Origin: Actinomycetota bacterium
GTDB lineage: Bacteria > Actinomycetota > CADDZG01 > WHSQ01
Length of the DNA stretch: 38,192 nucleotides
Assembly (NCBI GenBank): GCA_009380005.1
Contig: WHSQ01000002.1
Coordinates: 89,619-127,810 of the forward strand
Reading direction: 5' to 3'
Shown one piece after another: positions 9,674-19,401 of the stretch; the first letter of the stretch is position 1, and every line of letters begins with the position of its first letter. The position numbers were made by a program, and so were the translations under genes. The notes beneath the pieces were generated by a model, which saw only the letters and a list, made by a program, of their open reading frames with translations, was not told where the DNA came from and did not search any database.

Positions 9674-11464
<1,791 letters not shown>

Positions 11465-11506: not shown

Positions 11507-12361
11507 CTATTCCGGCGGGTGCCGGCCCAGGCGATCGAAGGCTGCGAGGGCCGGGGTGCTCTCGATTACCTTCGAGAAGGACCACCTCTCCGATGCCGCA
11601 TTCAGGGCGAGCAGCAAGACCATCGTCGCGACCCGGGCCGGCTCGTCCATCGCCAGGGCCAGGCCCAGGCCCAGAACCGCCCCCAGGGGGTTGGCCCCCG
11701 CATCGCCCAGCATCGCCTTCTCCCCGAGGTCGCTCGGCAGCACGGCGGCCAACGAACCGAGCAGGGCGGCCGTTGCGACCGTCCAATCGTCGGGAGCCAG
11801 CAGCACCGGCGCGATCGCCAGAAGCAACGAGACCTTCCCGGCCCGGCCCGGGGCCCGATCGAGCAGGTTGACGAGGTTGGCCGTGAGCGCCACGATCGCG
11901 GCGATCTCCAGCACGGGTCTCCACCCGTCCGCGACCAGAGCTCCCGCCGCCACCCCGGAAACGGCCCCGACCAGCATCTTCACGACTCCGCCCGTCAACC
12001 TCCCGCGCCGTGCGGCTCCCAGGTGACCGCCGAAACCGCGCGCCGGCTCGTCGCCCCGTCGATCGTCGATCGAACCTGCGACGTACATCACGACGATCAA
12101 GAGACCGGCCGCCAGCCCTATCGAACCGATCCGGCCGGCTTCCCATCCCGTGGATCCCACCGCCACGACGAAGAACATCCCGCACATCGCCCCGAAGACC
12201 ATCGGGCTACCCAAGATCGCGGGGACGTGCCGCCCCGAGACGTTCACGCGCATGAGAGTCACGGGTGGTGCCGCGAGACGTAGTCGAAGCAGGATACGAG
12301 CCACCGCTCCACCTATGACGGCGGCCGCGAGGACCGTCACGAAGGCATCCGACCCCATCAT
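11507..12361 (-). CDS. Short MraY/WecA-like membrane protein
   Basis: A 284-residue multi-helix membrane protein resembling the MraY/WecA polyprenyl-phosphate glycosyl-1-phosphate transferases, which attach a sugar phosphate to a lipid carrier. Family-like motifs are the Asp pair in GSIDDRRGD (99-100), NLLD (165-168, where MraY has N-x-x-D-G) and LGDAGANPLG (218-227, the MGDxG element). It is shorter than the usual 320-360 residues and I see no clear C-terminal HHH-type motif, so activity is uncertain. Its ATG (12359-12361) overlaps the upstream stop by 4 nt (ATGA), coupling it to the phosphatase-fold membrane gene. Likely a lipid-linked sugar step paired with the GT4 gene in the same run; it could be a divergent, non-catalytic relative. 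Confidence 0.72.
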   Translation of the reverse strand: MMGSDAFVTVLAAAVIGGAVARILLRLRLAAPPVTLMRVNVSGRHVPAILGSPMVFGAMCGMFFVVAVGSTGWEAGRIGSIGLAAGLLIVVMYVAGSIDDRRGDEPARGFGGHLGAARRGRLTGGVVKMLVGAVSGVAAGALVADGWRPVLEIAAIVALTANLVNLLDRAPGRAGKVSLLLAIAPVLLAPDDWTVATAALLGSLAAVLPSDLGEKAMLGDAGANPLGAVLGLGLALAMDEPARVATMVLLLALNAASERWSFSKVIESTPALAAFDRLGRHPPE

Positions 12362-14556
12362 GCCGAGCCTCCCTCGGCCAGGTCTGCCCCTCGCTCCAGG
12401 GACAGATGGATGAACAAGGCGAACGGAACGATGAACGACAGCATCAAGGCCGGGATCACGATGCCCGAGTCGTTCACGAAGAAGCCGATCACCGACAGGA
12501 TCAGGGCGGAGATGAGACCCGCCCTCAGACGGGGATGGGTGATGGCGAGCCGGTCCCACCGACCGCGGGGCCGAAGGAAGAGCCAGCCGATCAACAACAG
12601 CGCGAAGGGAACCAGGTACGTCCAGATCGTGTTCGTGAACACTCGAAGGTTGGTTCGCACCTTACGCACCACGGTGTCCAGGAAGACGTCGATACCTCGC
12701 GTGGTTACATCCTCGTAGAGGCGCGCAAGGTGCGTGCGACTGTCTTCGGGACGCGCGAGATCGACGGCGAGGAAGATGGCCAACGCCATCAGCATCGCTA
12801 GGACGCCGGTCAGCACGACCCTCCAGGTCGGCTTCCTCCCCGAGAGGAGCAACCACGCGAGACCGAGACCCGGGACGAGAGCGATTATCCCGCCGACATC
12901 GCTGCCCCACTGCGGCGCACCGTCGATCACGATCGTCACGAGGAACAGGAGGGCGACGACGATGAGGCTCAATGGTGCTCCCCTCCAGCGGTGAACGATC
13001 AGCGTTCCGGCTATGACGCAGGTCGCGGCGATGACCGAGTACGCGATGTTTCCGAAACCGGCGAACCGCCCCGCCACGATCGGTGAGTAACTGAACACCG
13101 TGTTCAATTGGAGTTGAGCGCCGGTCACCCCGTCCACCAACAGCAACAACAGGGTGGCCGCGGACAAGAGCAACAGACGATCCAGGGGGCCGCGTGCTAT
13201 CAGCCACGCGATACCGACCAACGCGGCGTCCACGCCTATCAGGATCGCCGAGAAGCCGACGAAACCCAGGGCGTTCTGCTCCATCAGCCCCATCAGATAG
13301 GTCGACGCCGGCAACGCCACGACCGCCAGCGTGGCGAACTCCAGCAGCCGGCCCCCGACGCCCGCGGCCAGCACGTGCTCCCGCCTCGTCATCAGCAACC
13401 ACAGGATCAGGACGTAAACGATCACCTGGAAGATCACGAAGATCGTCGATACCGGTGTGCGAACGCGGTCGATGAAGACCGCCTCGTCGTCGAGCTCCCG
13501 CGCGTGGTGGAACACATCGTCATCGACCGGCGCGATGGCCGTGAAGGACCGACCCAGCATCGAAGGCGGACGCTCGACCCCCTGCTGTTCCAGGATCGTG
13601 GGGGCGACGTCCGGCAGGGTCACTATGCCGGATCGTCCGGTCGACGGAGACACCAGAGATCGCCCCGCCGGGAATCGCGGTCCCGCAGCGAGCACGACGC
13701 CGAAGTGGACCGCCGGATCCCAGGCGGGAGACGTCGGGGAGACGATCAGCAACAGATCACGATCGAGATCCAGCTGCGCGGCGGTCTCTCCCAAGAGCTC
13801 ATCCGCCGCCAGCAGCGCGTCCCGCCGTTCCTCGGGCAGGGGGCGGCCCTGGACGGCCTCCAATTCGTCCACGCGGGTCAGGTCGCCATGCTCGATGAAG
13901 GTGACGGAGCATCGGAGCGCCAGCGCGGCGTCGATCGCCTCTCGGATGGCCCCGTCATCGGTCGAGACTCCGAACGGTCGAGTCGGGTCCGAACGCAGGA
14001 GCCCTGCATCCACGGCGGCCGTCGCGATCCCTGATGGATCCGTCGCCGACAACAGCGTCCATCGCCCGTGGCCGATCGGCGTGGGAGGGTCCAGGCCGAG
14101 GTCTCCGTTACCGATCGCGATGACCGGCGGCCCGAGCGCGTCGGCGAGCGCGCCCGGTACCGCGTCGTAGGTCGCTTGATCGGCCAGAGCGCGCACTTCG
14201 TCCATGCCGCCCACCCTCACCGTTTCGAGCCGACCGTCGCCGGCATCGCCGCCGGGGCCCAGCGATTCTCCGCCCCCGGTCGTGCGGCCCCCATCCATGC
14301 GCGTACCGGCGCCCAGGGTGACGTAGCCCGAGGCCAGCGATGTGCGAGACGAATTCGTCCTCACCGACATGGACCCGGCCGCGCCCCGCTCGGCGAGCTC
14401 CGACATCCGGGGCGGCCGGAACCGATCGACGTCGTGCCACGTCGTGCCCGGCAGGGTGAACACCACGACCCGAGCGCAGCTCTGGGCCCCGGCGGATCCC
14501 GCGGGCAACGCCAGCGCCAGGACGATGCCGGCCAGGATCACCGCGGACCTACGCAC
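12358..14556 (-). CDS. Alkaline-phosphatase-fold domain fused to a polytopic membrane domain
   Basis: A 732-residue fusion. A signal-type helix (residues 1-24, ending AGAQS) leads to an extracytoplasmic domain of about 330 residues that reads like an alkaline-phosphatase/sulfatase fold: an opening strand VVVFTLPGTTW, a Ser/Thr-rich turn TNSSRTSLASGY, and LPDVAPTILEQQGV, the usual C-terminal element. Residues 360-720 hold roughly ten membrane helices. The Asp that normally begins the metal site in the first strand (xDG) is absent, and no SDHG motif is seen, so the domain may be inactive or act differently. The GTG start at 14554-14556 overlaps the GT4 gene end by 8 nt; the stop overlaps the MraY-like start. 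The setting suggests envelope polymer transfer or transport. No specific function is assigned. Confidence 0.7.
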   Translation of the reverse strand: MRRSAVILAGIVLALALPAGSAGAQSCARVVVFTLPGTTWHDVDRFRPPRMSELAERGAAGSMSVRTNSSRTSLASGYVTLGAGTRMDGGRTTGGGESLGPGGDAGDGRLETVRVGGMDEVRALADQATYDAVPGALADALGPPVIAIGNGDLGLDPPTPIGHGRWTLLSATDPSGIATAAVDAGLLRSDPTRPFGVSTDDGAIREAIDAALALRCSVTFIEHGDLTRVDELEAVQGRPLPEERRDALLAADELLGETAAQLDLDRDLLLIVSPTSPAWDPAVHFGVVLAAGPRFPAGRSLVSPSTGRSGIVTLPDVAPTILEQQGVERPPSMLGRSFTAIAPVDDDVFHHARELDDEAVFIDRVRTPVSTIFVIFQVIVYVLILWLLMTRREHVLAAGVGGRLLEFATLAVVALPASTYLMGLMEQNALGFVGFSAILIGVDAALVGIAWLIARGPLDRLLLLSAATLLLLLVDGVTGAQLQLNTVFSYSPIVAGRFAGFGNIAYSVIAATCVIAGTLIVHRWRGAPLSLIVVALLFLVTIVIDGAPQWGSDVGGIIALVPGLGLAWLLLSGRKPTWRVVLTGVLAMLMALAIFLAVDLARPEDSRTHLARLYEDVTTRGIDVFLDTVVRKVRTNLRVFTNTIWTYLVPFALLLIGWLFLRPRGRWDRLAITHPRLRAGLISALILSVIGFFVNDSGIVIPALMLSFIVPFALFIHLSLERGADLAEGGSA

Positions 14557-15652
14557 CCGCCGCCTCCCGGTAGACGGTTCTCAACCGGTCCAGCATCCGC
14601 TCGGTGGAGAACCTATCGTCGAGCCGAGCCTTGGCCGCCTTCGCGTACCGGCGGGCACCTTCCGGCGAAGCGAGGACGTGAGACAAGGCATCGGCGAGCG
14701 CGACGGGTTTGTTCGGCGGTACGAGGCGGCCGGATACCCGGTCCTCTACGAGCTCGGGCAGCCCACCCACCGCCGTGGCGACGACGGGAGCGCCAAGGCT
14801 TATGGCTTCCTGGGCGGCGAGCGGGATGCCCTCCCAGACGGACGACAGAGCGAACACATCTCCTGCCGCGATCTGATCCGCCGGGTTGGGGGTGAAGCCC
14901 ACCCATCGGACGCGCTCCGCGATCCCGAGCTCGTCGGCCAGTGATCTGAGCTTGTCCTCCAACGCTCCCTTGCCCACGACCGCGAGATAGACGTCCGGCG
15001 ACAAGAGACTCAGTGCGCGGAGAAGGACGTGCAACGCCTTCTGCGGGTCGAGACGTGACACGGTAACTATGAGCGGAGCCGCGATAGGTACGTCGAGTGA
15101 GGAGCGCACCTCGGCGCGCTCACGGTTCACCTCGGGCTTCTCTCCGATGCCCAGGTAGAGCACCTCTATCTTCGAGCTCTGCTTGCGGGCGACTCGCCGC
15201 AGATGAACGCCTATCTGTTCCGAGACTGCGAAGGTCTTGAAGCTCTGCCACACCGCAAGCGGCTCGGACCAGCGGTAGGCAACGGATCTGATCGTCCCCG
15301 CTATCTCCGGCCGGACGAGGTTGTGCACCGTCACCAGCGTGGGGATGTCGAGTCGCCGTGCAGCACGTGCGGAGTCCGTCGCTGCTCGCAGCCCGTGAGC
15401 GTGGATCACGTCGTAATGGCCGTCACCGAGCAGACCGCTTAGAGCGTCGATGGCCGAGCGATGACCACGCAGGGCGCCGCGCGGGATCGTCACCTCCAAC
15501 GGCGCCTTCGGCATCTCGACCGGGAGATCGGGTGGTGCCGCGACATCCACTTCGAAGTCATCGTCGCCGTCGAGTGCTTCCGTTACTTGCGCCACGTGGC
15601 GCGCGATACCACCGGCCGAGTGAGATAGGACCTGCAACACCCGTATGGTCAT
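14549..15652 (-). CDS. GT4-family glycosyltransferase
   Basis: A 367-residue GT-B fold retaining glycosyltransferase. The N-terminal half starts [19 protein letters not shown] (glycine loop of the acceptor domain). The C-terminal half carries [16 protein letters not shown] and the donor-site EX7E motif in [11 protein letters not shown] followed by [16 protein letters not shown], typical for GT4 enzymes that use nucleotide-sugar donors. The start is ATG at 15650-15652, overlapping the murJ stop by 4 nt; the longer open frame has no family similarity. With murJ upstream and the phosphatase-fold and MraY-like genes downstream, it probably builds a lipid-linked glycan on the cytoplasmic side. Sugar and acceptor unknown. 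Confidence 0.9.
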
Positions 15653-17259
15653 CCTCGCCCTCGTCCGAACGCTGCCCGGAGGGACACCAGCTCGTCCGAG
15701 CGCCGCCATCTCATGAGCCCGAGGTACACCGCAGACCCCACGAGGGCGATCGCCGCGACCGCCAGGGCGGAGCCGCCCTTCCCGGCATCCGGGGTGACCG
15801 CGGCTGCGGCGATCATGCCGATGGTCGCAAACGCGCCGATCCCGGCTGCCCGCAGGGCGGAGTCCCTAAGGGCGGCTCCCCCGCCCGTGCCCACGCGCAT
15901 GCGCAGCGCTCGGGACAGCAGCACGGCTCCGATGACCGACGCGGCCGAGTGGGCCGCAGCGAGGGCCGGTACTTCCCATCCCTCGGGTGCGGCGAAGAAC
16001 GCAACCGCGCCCCCCACGCTCGAGACCGCAACCGTGATCAGGTTGATCAGCGCCGGTGTCTTCGTATCGCTCAACGCGTAGAACCCACGGGTGAGCACGA
16101 GGAAGATCGAATACGTGGGCAACCCGATGGCGAATGCGGCGAGCGTGCGGGCGATCAGGTCGGTCCCTTCGACGGTCATGGCACCGTTGTTCAACCCGAG
16201 CTCCAAGAGGGGGCCCGCGGCGGCGACCAAGAACCCCGCGATCGGCACGAGCAGGAACAGCAGCATCCGAAGGCCTTCCCTCATCCGGATCCCCACCTCC
16301 TGGAGCTCACCTTTCACCGCGTGCTCGGACATCTCGGGGAAGAGCACGTGGAATACGGGCACGCCGAACAATGCGTGCGGGAGGTAGAAGAAGGTGTAGG
16401 CCCACTGGTACGCGGCGACGCCACCTTCGACCCTGTTCGCCAACACGAGGACGACGATCAGCCCCGCCTGGTAGCCCCCCGCGTAGCTGAGCGCCCAAAC
16501 GCCCAGACGCATGGCGCGCCTGACCGCAGGGTGACGCCGGTCCGGATCGAAGCGGAACCTCCATCCGAGCCGGCGCAGTTCCGGGATCAGACAAACGGTC
16601 ATGGCCACGACGCCGGCCGTCGTACCGGCCCCCAGCACGAAGATCTCGGCCCCCGTTATCGACGTCACGGACGGAGCCCCCGAGCGCATCGCCGCGTACC
16701 CGAGATAGACGGCGATCACGACGACGTTATTGAAGATGGGAGCGATCGCCGCCGTGGCGAATCGGCGATGCGCATGGAGGGCACCCGTCATGATCATCCC
16801 CGCCCCGTAGAAGACGACCTGCGGAGCGAAGAGCCACAGGAAGCGAGTGCCGAGCGCGATCTCCTCCTCGCGCAGGGCGGAATCGGCCACGCCGATCGTG
16901 AGCAGCCGCATGATGAGGGGAGCGGCGAGGGCCAAGATCAACGCCACCGCGATGAGACCGACGAGAGCGACCGAGGTCAGCGCGTTCGCCGCCCTCCATC
17001 CCTCCCGGCTCCGGCCCCGGGTGATGTGTTCCACGAAGGTGGGAACGAACACCGAGGTAAGCACGCCGGCGGCCACGAGCTCGAACAACAGGTTGGGGGC
17101 GGTATTCGCCGTCTGGTAGGTGTTGGCGAGGAAGGTCGTGCCCATAGCCCCCGCCACGACGAGGACCCGCACGAAACCCGTGATCCGCGACAGGGCCGTC
17201 GCGGCCGTGATGACCGCAGCTCCGCGCGCCAACCCCGCCTGTCGCCGGCTATGGGTCAC
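15649..17259 (-). CDS. murJ: MurJ-type lipid II flippase
   Basis: A 536-residue MATE-like (MVF) transporter with about 14 membrane helices. MurJ moves lipid-linked peptidoglycan precursor across the membrane. Family features include the opening SRITGFVRVLVVAGAMG, then ANTYQTANTAPNLLFELVA with AGVLTSVFVPTF, and the second-half segments YLPHALFGVPVFHVLFPEMS and FYALSDTKTPALI. The start is GTG at 17257-17259, two bases after the steB stop; the N-terminal part of the longer open frame is antisense-like noise. Unlike mycobacterial MurJ, no kinase-like cytoplasmic extension is present. Since the genome may hold another copy elsewhere, this one could flip a different lipid-linked sugar made by the adjacent GT4 and MraY-like proteins. 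Confidence 0.92.
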   Translation of the reverse strand: MTHSRRQAGLARGAAVITAATALSRITGFVRVLVVAGAMGTTFLANTYQTANTAPNLLFELVAAGVLTSVFVPTFVEHITRGRSREGWRAANALTSVALVGLIAVALILALAAPLIMRLLTIGVADSALREEEIALGTRFLWLFAPQVVFYGAGMIMTGALHAHRRFATAAIAPIFNNVVVIAVYLGYAAMRSGAPSVTSITGAEIFVLGAGTTAGVVAMTVCLIPELRRLGWRFRFDPDRRHPAVRRAMRLGVWALSYAGGYQAGLIVVLVLANRVEGGVAAYQWAYTFFYLPHALFGVPVFHVLFPEMSEHAVKGELQEVGIRMREGLRMLLFLLVPIAGFLVAAAGPLLELGLNNGAMTVEGTDLIARTLAAFAIGLPTYSIFLVLTRGFYALSDTKTPALINLITVAVSSVGGAVAFFAAPEGWEVPALAAAHSAASVIGAVLLSRALRMRVGTGGGAALRDSALRAAGIGAFATIGMIAAAAVTPDAGKGGSALAVAAIALVGSAVYLGLMRWRRSDELVSLRAAFGRGRG

Positions 17260-17261
17260 GT

Positions 17262-18203
17262 TCAGTCGAGGAAGGCCTCGGGGAGCGGTGCGCTGGCCCC
17301 CTCGTCGCTCCCGTAGTGGCCCGTGATCCCCTGACCGGCGCGGGCCAGGCCGAGCACGAGAGCGATCTGGCTGGTGGTCGTTTCGGCGTGATCGACCGTG
17401 ACCACGGAACCCGAGATCCGATCGTCCTCTCGAACCCGCTGTACGAGGTTCCATCCCGACGAAGAGCGTTCCGCCACCGCCACCGCGGCCCCCTCCTCGA
17501 CGAGCCCACTCGACATCTCGATGGCGAACCGCCAGGCGTTGAACCCGGGGCGTCCAGAGCCTCCGCCGAGGATCAGGAACATGGCATTCGAAGGAACGAT
17601 GTCCTGGCTCTCGTTCAGCTCCACGGTCAGGTACCCCGCCTCCTGCAGCGTTTCGGCCAGGGACGTGAGCCGGGAGGCCGGCCCCGTATCGGACGACGGC
17701 TCGAGCTGGCCGCCCGTCTGCGACATGAAGAGACCGAGACGCCCGGCCATCTCGATCCTGACCTCGGCGGGATCCGAGCTCGTTATCCCCACGATGTTCG
17801 CCAGCTCCTGGACCTCCTCGCCACTCCCCAGCGCCAGCTTGTCCGTGACCGTCAGCGTGGACGCGATCGTGCCGTCCGCTTCTTCGACCGCTCCGGCTGC
17901 GGCGTCGGTGAGCGCGCTGTCGGTGTGGTCGAACCTGACGAAGACGACGTTCTCTCCCTGGAGCGCACCTTCGATCATCCAGGAGCGGACGGCGAGCGCG
18001 AAGCTCTCCGCGTCCTCCAAACGAGCCTTCAACTCGAGGTTCTCGTCTCGAACGATGCCGTTCTGTTTCCGGACCGACTCGATATCTTCCTTCAAACGCC
18101 CGGTCGCCGCCTCGCCGACGAAACCCGATCCGAGGGAAACGCCGATCGCCAACGACAGGAAGACCGCGACCAGGGAGATCAGGTGGAACCGGAAGTTCAC
18201 CAC
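17262..18203 (-). CDS. steB: SteB / MctB-family membrane-anchored protein
   Basis: A 313-residue protein with one N-terminal membrane helix (about 6-28), a coiled coil (about 32-65, KEDIESVRKQNGIVRDENLE) and an extracytoplasmic domain of about 240 residues with the conserved LILGGGSGRPGFNAWRF region. This is the SteB/MctB family: in mycobacteria it has been called an outer membrane channel and copper transport protein; in corynebacteria SteB acts with SteA in cell wall peptidoglycan organisation. The start is GTG at 18201-18203, one base after the steA stop. Pairing with steA here supports the division/cell wall role over copper transport. Confidence 0.9.
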   Translation of the reverse strand: MVNFRFHLISLVAVFLSLAIGVSLGSGFVGEAATGRLKEDIESVRKQNGIVRDENLELKARLEDAESFALAVRSWMIEGALQGENVVFVRFDHTDSALTDAAAGAVEEADGTIASTLTVTDKLALGSGEEVQELANIVGITSSDPAEVRIEMAGRLGLFMSQTGGQLEPSSDTGPASRLTSLAETLQEAGYLTVELNESQDIVPSNAMFLILGGGSGRPGFNAWRFAIEMSSGLVEEGAAVAVAERSSSGWNLVQRVREDDRISGSVVTVDHAETTTSQIALVLGLARAGQGITGHYGSDEGASAPLPEAFLD

Positions 18204-18204
18204 G

Positions 18205-19401
18205 TCAGCCGAACACCGCCCCCGCGATCCTGCGCCAGAGGTCCTGGAGCTCGATCCACCGGACCTCCACGAGGCCCCTGAGTGGGTCGCTCAGGACGAC
18301 CGCCACGATGAGCGCAGCCAGGGCCGCACCTATGAGCAAGAACAGGTCGCTTCGGCGAACCCGTGCGTCGTAGAGACGGCTGACGCCCTTCGCGTCCACC
18401 AGGATCGGTCCGACGCGGAGGCGCGTCAGGAAGGTCGAAGCCATCCCTCGCCGGCCCTTGTCCATGTACTCGACGAGGTTGGTATGGGTGCCTACGGCGA
18501 CGATCAACGCGGCCCCCCTTTCGAACGCAAGCAGCATCGCTATGTCCTCCGAGGTCCCCGTTGCCTCGAAGGTCACGGACGGCACTTCGAGGGCGTTCAG
18601 TCGCTCCAGACCCGGGGCGCTCCCGCCCGGATACGCGTGCACCACGACCTCCGCGCCGGTCAACAACGCTTCGTTGGACACGGAATCCATGTCGCCGACG
18701 ATCATGTCCGGCCGGAGTCCGAATTCGCGCAACGCGTCGGCTCCACCATCGACGCCGACGAGGATGGGCTTCACCTCCCGGATGTAGGCACGGAGATGGG
18801 CGAGATCCTGTTTGTAGTCGTGGCCTCGGACGACGATGAGCACCTGACGTGCGTGGAAGTCCGTCCGCACCTCCGGGAGGCGGGAGGCTTCCAGGAGAAC
18901 GTCGCGCTCGTCGCGGATGTACTCGATGGTGTTCTCGGCGAAGCGCTCGATCTCCGCCCCGATGGAGCGCTTCGAATCGTCGAAGATCCGCTCGGCCAGG
19001 TCCCGGTCCACCACGCGACCCTCGGCGACGACCTTCTTCCTGCCGCGGTCGACACGAAGGACCTTGTCACCTTCGATCATGACCCTCGCGTTCTCGGGGA
19101 TGCGCATCACCTCGGGGCCACAGTCGTCCAGGATGGTGATGCCGGCGGTCGCCAGGAGCAGCGGACCCAGGTTGGGATAGCGGCCCGTGGCCGCCTTGGA
19201 GGCATCGATGACGGCACCCACCTTCTGTTGAACGAGCCCCTCCGCAGAAACGCGATCGATGTCCTCATGGTCGATCACGGCTATCTCCCCCGGCTCCATC
19301 CGAGTGATGAGTCGCTTGGTGCGGACGTCCACCCGAGCGCGCCCGGACAAGCCTTCGAGCGCCGCGCCGTCATCGACCTTGCGTCGCAGTCGCAGCATCA
19401 T
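18205..19401 (-). CDS. steA: SteA, cytokinetic-ring associated membrane protein
   Basis: A 398-residue actinobacterial protein. An N-terminal alpha/beta region (about 10-160) precedes a domain resembling thiamine pyrophosphokinase, with GVDGGADALREFGLRPDMIV followed by GDMDSVS (about 220-246). One C-terminal membrane helix lies near 350-372. In Corynebacterium SteA recruits SteB and the pair affects septal wall integrity and susceptibility to envelope stress. The ATG start (19399-19401) overlaps the recN stop by 4 nt, and steB follows after one base, so the three are translationally linked. The TPK-like domain keeps the Asp-rich motif but its substrate, if any, is unknown. Confidence 0.92.
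   Translation of the reverse strand: MMLRLRRKVDDGAALEGLSGRARVDVRTKRLITRMEPGEIAVIDHEDIDRVSAEGLVQQKVGAVIDASKAATGRYPNLGPLLLATAGITILDDCGPEVMRIPENARVMIEGDKVLRVDRGRKKVVAEGRVVDRDLAERIFDDSKRSIGAEIERFAENTIEYIRDERDVLLEASRLPEVRTDFHARQVLIVVRGHDYKQDLAHLRAYIREVKPILVGVDGGADALREFGLRPDMIVGDMDSVSNEALLTGAEVVVHAYPGGSAPGLERLNALEVPSVTFEATGTSEDIAMLLAFERGAALIVAVGTHTNLVEYMDKGRRGMASTFLTRLRVGPILVDAKGVSRLYDARVRRSDLFLLIGAALAALIVAVVLSDPLRGLVEVRWIELQDLWRRIAGAVFG

Follow-up and report, generated by a model that had tools for sequence, protein, structure and literature searches.

In corynebacteria and tubercle bacilli the proteins SteA and SteB take part in cell separation, and an action on the septal hydrolase RipA has been reported for them. 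In the window analysed here (the whole stretch of 38,192 nucleotides, from contig WHSQ01000002.1 of an Actinomycetota bacterium) four genes for a flippase, a glycosyltransferase, a phosphatase-fold membrane fusion and an MraY-like protein lie between steB and pyrG, which raises the question of what such a set is doing beside steA and steB and whether it was inserted there, as the original prediction had it.

The genes between steB and pyrG

All four reading frames are open, lie on the minus strand between steB and pyrG and have the boundaries originally proposed. In order of transcription the genes are:

18205..19401, minus strand: steA homologue with a thiamine-pyrophosphokinase-like domain (NF040608, 465 bits; TPK_catalytic and SteA-like_C)
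17262..18203, minus strand: steB (mctB) homologue (PF11382, 177 bits)
15649..17259, minus strand: MurJ2, the genome's second MurJ-family flippase (536 aa, GTG at 17259; PF03023, 247 bits; TIGR01695, 271 bits)
14549..15652, minus strand: GT4-type (GT-B) glycosyltransferase (367 aa, ATG at 15652; PF00534, 122 bits; PF13692, 112 bits)
12358..14556, minus strand: protein with an AlkP-fold ectodomain and a multi-pass membrane domain (732 aa, GTG at 14556)
11507..12361, minus strand: PNPT, a homologue of MraY/WecA-like polyprenyl-phosphate glycosyl-1-phosphate transferases (284 aa, ATG at 12361)
9674..11341, minus strand: pyrG, CTP synthase (start about 11341; NF003792, 837 bits), the next gene downstream of PNPT

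The expectation that the genes overlap or nearly touch was borne out: a gap of 2 nt (read from the sequence) separates the steB stop (17262) from the GTG of MurJ2 (17259), and it is followed by overlaps of 4 nt between MurJ2 and GT4 (ATGA, 15652–15649), 8 nt between GT4 and the AlkP-fold/membrane gene (14556–14549) and 4 nt between the latter and PNPT (ATGA, 12361–12358), with about 165 nt between PNPT and pyrG. Judged from these overlaps, co-translation of the cassette with steA and steB is plausible. A sigma-70-like promoter was looked for in the region and none was found, a result that is weakly informative in a G+C-rich actinobacterium. Upstream of the cassette the window carries steA, steB, recN, nadK and tlyA, and downstream of PNPT it carries pyrG, alanine dehydrogenase and an XerD-type recombinase. 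As in the SteA–SteB system, steA and steB are adjacent, and each is matched by its own family model. The genome also encodes three LCP-type (LytR-CpsA-Psr) proteins.

Folds and motifs of the encoded proteins

PNPT scores 29.2 bits against PF00953 (cut-off 27), NCBIfam has no model for it, and since PDB sequence and profile searches gave no match a fold search was needed. Its AF2 model (pLDDT 92.1) matched MraY, DPAGT1 and a PDB polyprenyl-phosphate N-acetylhexosamine-1-phosphate transferase in Foldseek (probability 1.00, TM-score about 0.55–0.66, about 15% identity), in agreement with the MraY-like character assigned to it originally. Across 114 homologues from three phyla the motifs GxxDD, TxGxxK, NxxNLLDxxPGRAxK and MLGDxGxN are near-invariant, residues D99, D100, K128, N162, N165, D168 and D220 are invariant or nearly so, and the acidic catalytic positions (DD, the D of NxxNxxD and the D of GDxG) are 98–100% conserved (95–100% when taken together with TxGxxK and GDxGxN); the catalytic acidic motifs also align with those of the genome's own MraY (hhalign), a comparison that left locus L003 aside. 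PNPT therefore has the fold and core motifs (GxxDD, NxxNxxD and GDxGxN) of the MraY/WecA/DPAGT1 family (PF00953), but it differs from MraY in its length of 284 aa and its low identity (about 15%), in having PGRA after NLLD where MraY has GLDG, and in its C-terminal part, where the conserved HxH/HHH nucleotide-contacting loop is absent from the 114-homologue alignment and a conserved SFSxxIE...DxLGR tail stands in its place. At the single C-terminal column with many His residues (window residue 254) the protein studied here has N. The genome encodes three PF00953 proteins, PNPT and two more, one of which is a canonical MraY with the HHH motif; the candidate identity of PNPT as a second MraY was rejected for want of the HxH loop. 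From the motifs and the model we read PNPT as a probable active transferase with a donor unlike that of MraY and, as the HxH loop is missing, this donor may not be UDP-HexNAc.

The flippase and glycosyltransferase identities held (TIGR01695 and PF00534 scores above), and MurJ2 exceeds the TIGR01695 equivalog cut-off of 235.6 bits. The original prediction had proposed a check for a second murJ, and one is present elsewhere in the genome (G000:C11) and outscores the locus copy (311 versus 248 bits). The conserved Asp in TM2 of the housekeeping lipid II flippase, which we take to correspond to D39 of E. coli MurJ, is retained in the genome's other MurJ, whereas MurJ2 and most locus copies elsewhere have N at this position. 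Another MurJ is encoded away from the locus in 12 of the 13 sampled genomes with a locus MurJ, as it is in the window's genome. In a Coriobacteriaceae genome (G143), whose locus is also that of Coriobacteriaceae bacterium EMTCatB1 (L157, L118), the only MurJ that was found lies inside the locus, on the opposite strand and adjoining a GT2 gene.

The AlkP-fold/membrane protein (AF2 model, pLDDT 89.3) consists of an AlkP-fold domain at about residues 25–345 and a multi-pass membrane domain at about residues 360–730. The whole protein was searched and the Foldseek hits are dominated by the AlkP domain, which matches the AlkP-fold structures YejM, iPGM and NPP with probability 1.00 and has weak profile similarity to iPGM. 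The proposed phosphatase-fold membrane fusion is thus correct as to fold; a working phosphatase was rejected as the metal ligands are lost, the DH motif of the metal site being absent in 41 of 41 homologues and the metal-binding Asp of the first strand being replaced by Pro in the window and kept in only 12 of 36 aligned sequences. With these ligands gone the AlkP-fold domain cannot be a working phosphatase, and if the protein is active the membrane part should be responsible. YejM/PbgA likewise has an extramembrane AlkP fold joined to TM helices, but the window protein has the reverse domain order (AlkP first, TM after) and a far larger TM part, and YejM is reported to be a metalloenzyme (PMC7576196), unlike the DH-less family here.

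Within the membrane part D475, R497, G500, G551, D599, H609, R631 and D696 are 93–100% conserved (41 homologues), and Arg/Lys-rich loops occur at about residues 390–399, 454–460, 524–527, 572–577 and 662–674. With the AlkP domain outside and these loops inside, sequence and model helices together predict that all conserved motifs of the membrane part lie on the outer face, where D475, R497, D599, H609, R631 and D696 would stand as a polymerase or ligase needs them. No family scored above cut-off for the window protein, and when 29 homologues were scanned against Pfam and NCBIfam their membrane part matched neither a family nor a Wzy or WaaL model; scattered weak matches to FeoB, DUF6056 and SGSH_C were discounted as random or as reflecting the AlkP fold. 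On paper the cassette pairs a priming PNPT, a glycosyltransferase and a flippase of the MurJ/MOP kind as Wzx/Wzy- and WaaL-type systems do, and like Wzy and WaaL its multi-pass protein has conserved Arg, His and Asp on the predicted outer face. It differs from them in that the membrane part has no sequence match and is fused to a dead AlkP-fold ectodomain, and in that the cassette adjoins cell-separation regulators and not a variable polysaccharide island. The gene for this protein is present as two tandem copies in one locus (L059, G010) and on each side of PNPT in two others (L053, G017; L035, G018). The MraY-like and phosphatase-fold proteins are not just unrelated membrane proteins, as both folds are those claimed.

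Linkage to steA and steB and its inheritance

Further genera of the window's family, and additional families of the phylum, share the order steA-steB-MurJ-GT4-AlkP/membrane-PNPT-pyrG, so it is neither peculiar to this assembly nor due to chance. Related loci were found in Candidatus Aquicultor, Coriobacteriia and 'Actinomycetes bacterium' MAGs. Of 296 evenly sampled actinomycetotal genomes, 125 have SteA over cut-off, 114 have PNPT and 109 have both (a SteA match is missing in only five of the 114 PNPT genomes), and the two genes lie within 12 kb on the same strand in 97 of the 98 genomes that have both on one contig. A GTDB scan found PNPT in Clostridia and Armatimonadota as well; Thermoanaerobacterium saccharolyticum (L072) has one of the homologues. 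Among the best 80 loci of one scan across phyla, Clostridia included, 67 had enough upstream DNA; steA lies upstream of PNPT in 65 of these 67, and 57 of the 65 have the order steA-steB-GT2-PNPT. The clostridial arrangement is spo0A-steA-steB-GT2-PNPT, a Spo0A-type response regulator gene preceding the block in the loci that were read closely, and SteAB has been reported to adjoin Spo0A in Clostridia (PMC12977500).

The partners vary around this core. In Clostridia and many actinobacteria the partner is GT2; one actinobacterial clade (support 0.95) has PNPT-MurJ-GT4, relatives of the window have MurJ-GT4-AlkP/membrane-PNPT, and in Coriobacteriia MurJ and GT2 are on the opposite strand. Beside steAB the loci of Clostridia carry GT2 and PNPT alone, so MurJ2, GT4 and the AlkP-fold/membrane protein are not essential parts. 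Among the matches listed (down to about 76 bits) the last of these has strong matches in 102 of the 114 PNPT genomes versus 10 of the 182 others, counts that are inflated by shared ancestry; again among the matches listed, its gene is beside PNPT in 38 of the 102 and elsewhere in the rest, in several directly after parB. Four such homologues from other actinomycetota (L040, L041, L042 and L055) are near parA/parB; in the two loci whose genes were read one by one, L040 and L041, they come directly after parB.

Three loci depart from the usual pattern or lineage. One (L155, G293) has the rearranged order recN-PNPT-steA-steB-MurJ-AlkP/membrane-pyrG, with the same partners still together. A large Streptomyces-like genome (L161, G140) has recN-PNPT-GT4 before pyrG without steA or steB, and the PNPT/GT4 pair can therefore outlive SteAB. 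A contig titled as a Bifidobacterium breve MAG (L135) has steA-steB-PNPT-pyrG; MAG contigs in the survey can be mis-binned and this one probably is, Bifidobacterium being reported to be without SteAB (PMC12977500).

Tree distances of steA and PNPT are correlated at 0.83 (the largest of 500 permutations gave 0.095), those of steA and steB at 0.84 and those of PNPT and recN at 0.87, and Bacillota are set apart from Actinomycetota in both the steA tree (62/62) and the PNPT tree (59/62). PNPT is thus an old neighbour of steA and steB that has been inherited vertically with steA and recN. The window resembles the SteA–SteB (TapA–MctB) systems of Corynebacterium and Mycobacterium in having adjacent steA and steB within a recN-steA-steB block, but there steB is followed by pyrG without GT or PNPT, as the original prediction stated for mycobacteria and as is the case in a Mycobacterium-like genome (L160). 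PNPT is absent from 16 SteA genomes, eight of them in the family of this Mycobacterium-like genome. Because of the congruent trees, the PNPT-less locus and this family distribution, loss is a better explanation for the mycobacterial order than insertion is for the window: mycobacteria probably lost PNPT, and the reading of the cassette as inserted between steB and pyrG is probably backwards. A later addition is conceivable for the MurJ/GT4/AlkP-membrane part alone, which whole families of genomes share.

A candidate lipid-linked glycan pathway and its alternatives

The reading we favour, with somewhat better than an even chance of being right, is that the cassette represents a locally extended version of an old module uniting SteA and SteB with enzymes for a polyprenyl-phosphate-linked glycan. 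This agrees with the assembly line envisaged originally, for which we infer the following activities and order of steps. PNPT would move a sugar-1-phosphate from a nucleotide sugar onto polyprenyl phosphate at the inner face, GT4 (GT2 in most other lineages) would add a sugar, and MurJ2, as distinct from the housekeeping MurJ, would flip the product. At the outer face the membrane part of the AlkP-fold protein would transfer or polymerize the glycan, with the dead AlkP-fold domain perhaps binding or sensing. SteA, through its nucleotide-diphosphate pocket, might then couple the glycan or precursor pool to the SteB-dependent activation of septal peptidoglycan hydrolases.

UDP and GDP have been reported to stabilize CgSteA, and carbohydrate binding is predicted for its pocket (PMC12977500), which fits a SteAB-linked glycan pathway; a conserved GT and PNPT neighbour would explain the nucleotide-diphosphate pocket. 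The words 'glycosyltransferase' and 'lipid' are absent from the text of that structure paper, and in the literature searched on the PNPT gene and the SteAB neighbourhood, as in the accounts of the SteA–SteB system that were examined, no description of a GT–PNPT link was found. Counting against the proposed module, corynebacteria and mycobacteria have a functional SteAB but lack these genes, and SteA/TapA of M. tuberculosis is reported to act via MtrB, independently of SteB (PMC12338722), so that the coupling of SteAB may differ between lineages.

The best of the alternatives, although we think it unlikely, is a variant of peptidoglycan-precursor synthesis, in which a lipid I/II-like molecule, modified or specific to the septum, is made by PNPT and flipped by MurJ2, with SteAB timing its use at division. 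The MraY fold of PNPT, the membership of MurJ in the lipid II flippase family, the Coriobacteriaceae genome (G143, L157) with its only MurJ in the locus and the action of SteAB on peptidoglycan hydrolases (PMC12977500) all favour it, but PNPT is without the HxH loop of MraY and has diverged far from it in sequence, the genome encodes a separate MraY and MurJ, most locus MurJs carry N for the TM2 Asp, and the cassette contains no Mur ligase or MurG homologue. We give little credence also to the view that PNPT is beside steA and steB merely through the stability of the tlyA-nadK-recN-steA-steB-pyrG block, without a functional tie to SteAB. Its main support is the Streptomyces-like genome that keeps PNPT-GT4 without steAB; in addition, conservation and vertical inheritance extend over the entire block, recN and pyrG included, and PNPT shows a correlation with recN as it does with steA. 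However, the neighbours differ by phylum (spo0A upstream in Clostridia, recN in Actinomycetota) while steA-steB-(GT)-PNPT remain together, as do the partners in the rearranged locus L155, and PNPT genomes without a SteA match are few (5/114, the Streptomyces-like one included). It is improbable that PNPT has a non-catalytic or regulatory role, as a relative able to bind polyprenyl phosphate or a nucleotide and to modulate SteAB or MurJ: the missing nucleotide-contacting loop and the weak PF00953 score would suit such a role, but the conservation of the acidic positions, TxGxxK and GDxGxN in three phyla and a glycosyltransferase gene as the usual neighbour argue against it. Finally, the idea of a newly inserted cassette is very improbable, since, although the Mycobacterium-like locus has steB directly before pyrG and the presence of the MurJ, GT4 and AlkP-membrane genes varies from lineage to lineage, a recent insertion or horizontal island was rejected on the base composition of the block, which resembles its surroundings, on the distance correlations and on the congruent trees of a PNPT that adjoins steAB in two phyla, the remaining part being common to whole genome families.

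To return to the glycan module, the linkage of steA and steB to PNPT across two phyla suggests that SteAB first worked with a putative surface sugar. A wider version, which we put forward only tentatively and hold to be doubtful as a whole, is that SteAB was originally the control unit of a lipid-linked glycan pathway (GT and PNPT, later with MurJ2 and a pseudo-AlkP polymerase or ligase) common to Clostridia and Actinomycetota; SteA would sense nucleotide sugars or UDP/GDP products and gate cell separation (in Clostridia, spore formation) on the glycan, and corynebacteria and mycobacteria would have kept SteAB and lost the glycan. That a SteA gene travels with a glycosyltransferase and an MraY relative through two phyla would give the SteA nucleotide pocket a testable role, in response to a signal from a nucleotide sugar or a lipid-linked glycan. 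It further defines two families of proteins that have no curated model and suggests a putative envelope glycan in many spore-forming anaerobes and actinobacteria.
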